A DNA stretch of 33,272 bases, taken from positions 1 to 33,272 of IMG/VR virus record IMGVR_UViG_3300008516_000059; one strand, given 5' to 3'. Source of the DNA: a virus. A program made the position numbers and the translations under genes. The notes under the pieces are model-generated. The model had not been told where the DNA came from and ran no database searches. It was given only the letters and a program-made list of their open reading frames with translations. Below, one piece after another: positions 32,196 to 33,272 of this stretch (positions are counted from its first letter, which is position 1; every line of letters begins with the position of its first letter).

Positions 32196-32435
32196 TTAAT
32201 CAGCTCGTTGTCCTTCTCTATCCCTTTTTGCAATCTTTTCCTCCTCACCTTCGTATGTCTTCAACTTCTCATTGAGTAAGAAGCTGGTGGAGTTCTCATA
32301 GACACAATGGGGGCAAAGGATACCTCCCTCCCAGCCCAAGCTCTCTAATTCCTTTTTAGCACTCCGCTTCTCTATGGTTACATGCACTCCACAACCACCA
32401 CAAAAGAATGTTGTCATCATAACAGTTCCATTCAT
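32196..32435 (-). CDS. Zinc-ribbon protein (79 residues)
   Basis: The ATG at 32435 follows AGAGGAGAGAAAA; an open frame extends upstream to 32483 but has no ribosome site. CGGC near residue 12 and CPHC near 41 are the ribbon knuckles; the tail is a charged helix (E-G-E-E-E-K-I-A-K-R-D-R-E). Its start lies directly after a 287-base untranslated region with strong secondary-structure potential, so its translation may be regulated by RNA folding. Confidence 0.7.
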   Translation of the reverse strand: MNGTVMMTTFFCGGCGVHVTIEKRSAKKELESLGWEGGILCPHCVYENSTSFLLNEKLKTYEGEEEKIAKRDREGQRAD

Positions 32436-32722
32436 TTTTCTCTCCTCTTTAATCTTTAGGCTGGCTAGTAGCTGTTGGTTCACCGTGTTTCTTGCTACTT
32501 CCCTTCCAACACCCTGTCACTTAGTGTAGTTCCTAAAGCTGATTGCCTTCCTCATTTAACCCAGTCATTCTTCCTCTGGGCACTTTAGGCTTAGATAGGT
32601 TTTCTGCTCTCAATGGACTTTCACCAAACCGCTAAGACATTAAGTTATCTTCAAACCGACTTTCACGGCTCAATATAGTAGGGGTTGTGGCAACTCCCTA
32701 TCGGTAGCCAGCTATTCAATTC
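32436..32722 (-). ncRNA. Candidate structured RNA or regulatory leader
   Basis: This 287-base stretch between two minus-strand genes holds no credible gene of its own, while most other gaps in the window are a few bases. Read on the minus strand it contains: a 9-bp hairpin with one bulge (32700-32679, loop CCA); AGCCG/CGGTT (32670-32654); CTTAG-GGTTT paired with AAACC-CTAAG (32636-32590); CCTAAAG/CTTTAGG (32589-32583 with 32538-32532) enclosing CCCAG/CTGGG (32580-32560); TGTTGG/CCAACA and AGTAGC/GCTACT interleaved (32511-32467). A second CCTAAAG (32460-32454) lies against the ribosome site. I do not recognise a known class. It could act in cis or be a separate RNA. Confidence 0.5.
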
Positions 32723-33272
32723 TTAAAGTTCTCCTTTTATCCTCTTGATGGCTGCCATTATACCATCATAGCTAGGATTCCCGAATACCATACCCACCAA
32801 TGGACTAGGCACCGATGGTGCATCAACCTCACAAAAGAATTTACCATTATCCGTGTAGGTATGGAGCATCAAATCTGCACTATCACCCAAAGATGAAAAC
32901 CCCGACCTCTCCCTCTTACCACTCCTTCCATCCTCAATATTACCAGTCTTTGTATTAAGCATTGGTTTATACTCATCCCTAGCATGGTGAGCCAGAACCA
33001 AATGCTTACCATGAGCCTTGGCTTGGTATATTATGCCTCTCATCCTGATGTTAGGCTCCCTATATTCTATAGGTAACAGACTAACCCTAAGCTTCTCACC
33101 AGGCAATAGGTTACCCTCAGAATTAAACTGCATTTCCTGTTTTTCCTGAAGGTAAGCAGTGCAGATTATCTCCCAGAGCAAGGTTCCAGTGTCTATAATA
33201 CCAGTAGCTATCTCCTTGCTTGTTAGGAACCTAAGGTATTCTACTAGGAACTCATACCACAGCTCCTTAACT
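32723..33272 (-). CDS. RecA/Sak4-like recombination ATPase, cut by the right edge
   Basis: The frame is open from the window end, so the N-terminus, including the expected Walker A, is missing. Near the visible start is a Walker B-like I-A-T-G-I-I-D-T-G-T-L-L-W-E. Later come K-H-L-V-L-A-H-H-A-R-D-E-Y and G-D-S-A-D-L-M-L-H-T, the sensor and D-x-x-x-x strands seen in phage Sak4-type single-strand annealing or RecA-like ATPases. The TTG at 33181 is internal and should not be taken as the start. As the first visible gene of the leftward replication unit it would act in recombination with the polymerase and the ERCC4-like nuclease. Confidence 0.7.
   Translation of the reverse strand, partial: VKELWYEFLVEYLRFLTSKEIATGIIDTGTLLWEIICTAYLQEKQEMQFNSEGNLLPGEKLRVSLLPIEYREPNIRMRGIIYQAKAHGKHLVLAHHARDEYKPMLNTKTGNIEDGRSGKRERSGFSSLGDSADLMLHTYTDNGKFFCEVDAPSVPSPLVGMVFGNPSYDGIMAAIKRIKGEL

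Follow-up and report, generated by a model that had tools for sequence, protein, structure and literature searches.

A conserved candidate structured RNA with a covariation-supported pseudoknot in a phage recombination operon

Compensatory base changes among four phage sequences indicate that an intergenic gap in a 33,272-base virus record (the whole stretch of DNA analysed, hereafter the window, which is possibly a fragment) encodes an evolutionarily conserved structured RNA and not merely a fold of one sequence. The gap is located on the minus strand between P0001, an ATPase gene truncated at the end of the contig, and a zinc-ribbon-like gene, and the RNA is on the same strand as both neighbours. 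On balance, we favour its interpretation as a conserved structured phage noncoding RNA that has an RNA role of its own, as opposed to a switch of the next gene. It probably acts independently of the neighbouring gene, a trans-acting role that we infer solely from the change of neighbour genes. A sequence-only reading of the window had proposed that this region holds a structured RNA, either a riboswitch or attenuator or a stand-alone phage RNA. The four long forms with their compensatory changes bear out the structured RNA, and the last of these options is the one that fits best.

The gene upstream encodes the C-terminal part of an ATPase for which we use 'Sak4-like' as a working name, because a full-length P0001 homologue matched AAA_24 and Sak4-like annealing proteins only weakly. 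When the zinc-ribbon protein was used as query, one partial, uninformative match was obtained. In relatives, the Sak4-like gene is preceded by a nuclease gene whose product had neither a Pfam match nor a relative in the named-phage collection; an invariant DYK.WGS together with a cysteine pattern suggests that it is Cas4-like. Neither a promoter nor a terminator belonging to the RNA was found on its strand, and the single promoter-like site is on the other strand. Coordinates of all features are collected in Table 1.

Table 1. Positions of the RNA, its helices, the flanking genes and related elements (window numbering unless a locus is named)
Feature	Position	Strand	Remark
Structured RNA element, long B-type, 253 nt	32460..32712	-	homologues and covariance model R1
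Long-form homologues	L002:1343-1526; L109:149-379; L111:2513-2680(-)
Upstream gene P0001, C-terminal part of Sak4-like ATPase	32723..33271	-	cut by contig end; orthology by tblastn
Leader TAAGAATTGAATAG	32712..32725	-	stops TAA 32725-32723, TGA 32718-32716, TAG 32714-32712
P1 5′ strand GCUGGCUA	32705..32712	-	pairs with 32467-32460
P1 3′ strand UAGCCAGC	32460..32467	-	pairs with P1 5′ strand
P2 5′ strand GAUAGG	32697..32702	-	pairs with 32599-32594
P2 3′ strand CCUAUC	32594..32599	-	pairs with P2 5′ strand
P2a 5′ strand UUGCC	32689..32693	-	pairs with 32608-32604, one C.A mismatch in the window
P2a 3′ strand AGCAG	32604..32608	-	pairs with P2a 5′ strand
P3 5′ strand CCUAAAG (first copy)	32583..32589	-	pairs with 32538-32532
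P3 3′ strand CUUUAGG	32532..32538	-	pairs with P3 5′ strand
P4 mini-hairpin UAC ACUAA GUG	32518..32528	-	compensatory change A-U to G-C
Invariant CAGGG before pseudoknot	32512..32516	-	identical in 4 of 4 long forms
P6 5′ strand UGUUGG	32506..32511	-	pairs with CCAACA
P6 3′ strand CCAACA	32473..32478	-	pairs with UGUUGG
P5 5′ strand GUAGC	32494..32498	-	pairs with 32472-32468
P5 3′ strand GCUAC, between P6 and P1	32468..32472	-	pairs with GUAGC
Second CCUAAAG copy	32454..32460	-	outside conserved RNA; absent after P1 in L002, L109, L111
Shine-Dalgarno AGAGGAG of zinc-ribbon gene	32442..32448	-	outside all conserved helices; from sequence
Zinc-ribbon-like gene, 79 aa, downstream	32196..32435	-	not kept beside RNA in relatives
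CCTAAAG, two copies	32589-32583 and 32460-32454	-	from sequence
CTTTAGG between CCTAAAG copies	32538-32532	-	from sequence
TGTTGG / CCAACA	32511-32506 / 32478-32473	-	from sequence
AGTAGC / GCTACT	32499-32494 / 32472-32467	-	from sequence
9-bp hairpin, one bulged A	32700-32691 / 32687-32679	-	from sequence
Module A			CUUGCUGG...CCAGCAAG
Module B, the kind in the window			GCCAGCYA...URGCUGGC; P2-P4 usually reduced to small hairpin
Module C			CCUGAGC...GCUCAGG
Module D			fourth array module

The long form of the RNA is known in four phage sequences: the window and the records L002, L109 and L111. Directly downstream of the Sak4-like gene, the RNA is absent in the 15 loci closest by P0001; blastn over the whole records of these loci gave three colinear blocks in the closest relative, L002, where the RNA is found upstream of the putative Cas4-like nuclease gene and not after the ATPase gene. 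A 17-base block used as query found L109 and L111, which also carry the other two blocks, neither of which had played a part in finding them, and a pattern of the third block returned the same three records and no others from the viral collection. The blocks common to the four long forms, from closing stem to closing stem, are CCGATAGGGAGTTG, GCAGAAAACCTATCTAAGCCT.AAGTG and CTT.AGGAACT.CAC.AAG.GACAGGG, and the invariant core across the four phages comprises GGGAGUUG, GAAAACC, CUAAG and CAGGG. No DNA similarity to the window was detected in named phages, and a protein search of bacterial genomes found none. A pattern search of GTDB gave 14 DNA matches, none with another conserved block in the flanks inspected, that look like chance or coding matches. 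Likewise, a second B-like regular-expression match in the window (27297-27120) lies antisense inside a tail gene and was taken as chance.

A structure comprising P1, P2, P2a, P3 and P4 was drawn by hand on the four long forms. It pairs 98.3% of cells and contains six pairs with double compensatory changes, and neither value was reached in any of 500 shuffles; a control in which the partners were slid by 1-3 columns gave 0-1 doubly changed pairs. Drawing and testing the structure on the same four sequences favours it, a bias that the slid control shares, and for that reason P1 was also checked over 25 B-type elements, 21 of which are not long forms (strands typed by hand from the sequences, 24 of the 25 re-located by script). 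Four of the 8 bp of P1 are doubly changed among the four long forms. Over the larger set, 197 of 200 cells are paired, a proportion that is not independent because B elements are recognised by this stem, but the swaps of pair type are independent evidence: pair 7 is U-A in 12 elements and C-G in 11. P2, most of its extension P2a, and P3 are nearly invariant, with little or no covariation; since P2 is identical in the four sequences, covariation argues neither for nor against it. One pair of P3 alternates among A-U, G-U and G-C. In L046 and L047, both short forms, the CAGGG motif recurs as AACAGGG.

Two further helices are interleaved near the 3′ end. TGTTGG/CCAACA and AGTAGC/GCTACT had been proposed to form either a pseudoknot or two exclusive states. 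The first of them, P6, is a helix of 5-6 bp that recurs in the corresponding position of each of the four long forms, starting directly past CAGGG and stopping 0-1 base short of the CUAC (or CAC) next to P1. The four versions of P6 have unrelated sequences (UGUUGG/CCAACA, CAGGG/CUUUG, CUGUU/GACAG and GACAG/CUGUC, with shuffle p values of 0.001, 0.02, 0.065 and 0.025, respectively). For the P5-type helix abutting P1, the summed score over 24 B elements was 147.5 versus 111.2 +/- 7.5 in shuffles, none of 400 of which reached it; in single elements of this set the helix is often not significant, and in some, such as L109, the best-scoring partner lies far away and not within the P6 loop. CTAC directly precedes P1 in 15 of the 24 located B elements, and where CUAC is replaced its partner is often replaced too (GUGC/GCAC, GGAGCC/GGCUCC, GUCUU/AAGAC). 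Because both helices are retained with changed sequences, the pseudoknot is better supported than the exclusive states. The simplest reading of these sequences would be a pseudoknot in which P1, P5 and P6 stack on one continuous 3′ strand.

The RNA also appears to have shorter relatives. An alignment-based search with the nuclease collected 68 loci, many of which contain a chain of stem-closed modules in the gap after a gene that we call 'gene X'. Modules A, C and D were identified by visual inspection, and the covariation figures cover B only. Some 20 additional phage loci carry a short B form with the same closing stem, mostly arranged in tandem with other modules (A-B-C-D); the short form is related to the long form via P1, CTAC, the AACAGGG of L046 and L047, and the scores of covariance model R1, which recovers short forms in other phages with 17-24 bits (E 0.0002-0.014). 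The synteny is gene X, array, nuclease, Sak4-like gene and helix-hairpin-helix protein. The array follows gene X in most phages, but in the window, L086/L109 and L076 it comes after the Sak4-like gene; arrays occupy one of these two intergenic sites of one recombination module. In the related phage G020, a DUF3800-VII RNA forms an array module (L181 rc 287-377; G020:41253-41343, minus; 61 bits versus a cut-off of 36.2), and a hairpin element of about 35 nt, GACAAGAGCYAGACAAAGACGAGATAAGTCTGGC, is present three times around it.

In most related arrays, a leader of the type TTAACAATTGAATAG stands ahead of the first module. The window leader has one stop codon per frame, immediately 5′ of the RNA. 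Of 26 leaders, 14 have a stop in every frame within a fixed 18-nt stretch versus 1.1 expected from shuffles, a count that is not a probability because the loci are related and not independent; the window leader scored 2 in this strict count because its TAG runs into the stem. The motif could be conserved for a reason other than ribosome insulation. A decayed coding sequence, an alternative raised by the sequence-only reading, does not match what we found, namely three-frame stops at the 5′ side, no ORF of at least 60 aa confined to the gap, and conserved pairing.

Other elements were seen in the intergenic regions of this recombination module. Short HNH-endonuclease-like genes, recognised by eye, lie in the gap after the Sak4-like gene in L007, L008, L010, L011 and L016. 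A CCCC-TTCG-GGGG tetraloop hairpin is located immediately 5′ of the Shine-Dalgarno site before the nuclease gene in L009, L005 and L045. The more distant relatives L055, L066, L085 and L088 have unrelated stem-closed elements in the gap upstream of the nuclease gene. A long element at L088:2643-2900, closed by AGCGTTCTG/CAGAACGCT with an inner stem ATAGGATA/TATCCTAT, is possibly another structured RNA.

With neither a promoter nor a terminator detected for it on its strand, the RNA would, we infer, be co-transcribed with the replication/recombination genes. The three-frame stop leader may keep ribosomes out, thereby letting the RNA fold, and the RNA might then work in its own right as a scaffold, a decoy or an RNP component, possibly after processing. 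A wider proposal, which we offer tentatively as one possibility, is that the tandem chain of separately closed modules, with its three-frame stop leader, constitutes an RNA island inside the recombination operon that would serve as a modular RNA machine or scaffold. Such an island, made of modules A-B-C-D and sometimes a tRNA-like gene or a DUF3800-VII RNA, might be comparable with ROOL and GOLLD but unrelated to them.

The main rival to an independent RNA role, in our judgement rather unlikely, is a general cis-acting mRNA element, such as a roadblock or nuclease-processing island, whose fold stabilises, processes or insulates the polycistronic transcript, whichever gene follows. The invariable location of the elements on the coding strand, after a stop codon and before the next ribosome site, their tandem stable stems, the unrelated stem-loops in the corresponding gap of L055, L066, L085 and L088, and an intra-operon position with no promoter or terminator of their own are all consistent with it. 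However, a mere stabiliser would need neither an invariant core kept across four phages nor a pseudoknot.

A switch dedicated to the zinc-ribbon gene is a different matter, and it depends on the strings from which the sequence-only reading started. All of these are indeed present on the minus strand, where that reading had placed them, and AGAGGAG (32448-32442) begins 5 bases past the second CCTAAAG. Among dinucleotide shuffles of the region, 0.6% contain a 7-mer twice with its complement in between; repeated 7-mers alone (13% of shuffles) and inverted 7-mers (19%) are unremarkable, and the folding energy of the region gave no signal (z = -0.90). The single sequence alone would thus leave the case undecided, and it is the existence of homologues with compensatory changes that raises the region above chance. 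In these homologues the pairing of the first CCTAAAG with CTTTAGG is kept and the second copy is not. The 9-bp hairpin that had been noted past the upstream stop proved to be specific to the window; it uses TAGGG, which P2 also needs, and was dropped because it is incompatible with the conserved GATAGG/CCTATC helix. A riboswitch or translational attenuator in which both CCTAAAG copies compete for CTTTAGG is accordingly improbable: despite the rarity of the triplet in shuffles and the 5 nt that separate one copy from the Shine-Dalgarno site, the second copy is missing from all three homologues and, in the window, begins with a base of the conserved closing stem, the conserved pairing is that of P3, the ribosome site is outside every conserved helix, and the RNA strand shows no terminator. 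The following gene also differs in each relative, the next feature being the zinc ribbon in the window, a 50-aa membrane-like ORF in L109 and further RNA modules in L002 and L111. With neither the second CCTAAAG nor the 9-bp hairpin nor the zinc-ribbon gene conserved, a gene-specific switch is unsupported.

We consider it still less probable that the modules are relics of a decayed tRNA island, that is, tRNA genes that subsequently drifted. One module of the L005 array is a tRNA-like gene that carries CCA and has its own leader copy (L005:1060-1207; L040:6228-6378); this gene scores 28.1 bits to RF00005 (cut-off 29), has a 93-nt insertion in the anticodon region and is called tRNA-Gly with an intron by ARAGORN. 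In L013, ARAGORN reads a module at about 745-892 as tRNA-Arg carrying a 61-nt intron; its D arm resembles that of tRNA-Leu, and it has a stem resembling a T arm. The general layout of the modules, with closing stem, arms and a last arm abutting the stem, is tRNA-like. Against this, no tRNA match was obtained for the window element, the L047 array or, by Infernal, the L013 module, B modules have no T-loop or CCA, and the compensatory changes point to ongoing selection on the fold and not to decay. Finally, a mobile ribozyme or intron-like element is highly improbable, for although the sites differ among related phages, the same gap is empty of RNA in close relatives and HNH-endonuclease-like genes seen by eye fill it in L007 and L010, the RNA has no Rfam intron or ribozyme match, is always intergenic with no interrupted gene seen, and carries no recognised cleavage motif.

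The sequence-only reading had matched the region to no known class, in agreement with our scan of Rfam 15, which gave 0 gathering-score matches in the window, including group I and II introns and known ribozymes, and nothing credible in the window and L109 at relaxed thresholds. The GOLLD and ROOL family models did not match, and in the window ARAGORN found 0 tRNA genes and RF00005 had no match, with no tRNA in the L047 array either. Hammerhead- and HDV-like motifs, looked at by eye, were rejected. We found no paper describing this RNA in a literature search whose scope excluded many subscription papers and a 2017 survey of 224 candidate RNAs. Judged from these comparisons, the RNA family and its modular arrays appear to be new, while phage structured noncoding RNA as a kind is already known.

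Like a riboswitch or attenuator, the RNA is a structured element a short distance upstream of a ribosome site, but no conserved downstream gene, competing strand or expression platform was found here. With tRNA (RF00005) it shares the stem-closed layout, the last arm abutting the closing stem, and arrays that may include a tRNA-like gene; unlike tRNA, the window element has no tRNA match, CCA or T-loop, and the combination of cloverleaf, T-loop and CCA is approached only by the separate L005 module. The DUF3800-VII RNA (RF02967) of the G020 array is a genuine member of its family, whereas a search of the window and 17 other related records gave none. GOLLD and ROOL are large ornate RNAs of phages and prophages, with pseudoknots and often beside tRNA-type elements, whose shapes are known and whose function is unknown (PMC12286853). 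The window RNA is also phage-encoded, heavily structured and predicted to contain a pseudoknot, but GOLLD and ROOL are single RNAs of 600-800 nt, whereas the RNA described here measures about 250 nt or consists of several small modules in a chain and sits inside a recombination operon; the two are comparable, not homologous. Taken together, these findings point to a further candidate class of structured RNA in phages, one whose pseudoknot is supported by covariation, and indicate that such RNAs are maintained in modular arrays next to the recombination genes of a phage clade. A smaller modular family whose composition varies while its genomic location stays fixed would provide a way of approaching the purpose of ROOL- and GOLLD-like RNAs.
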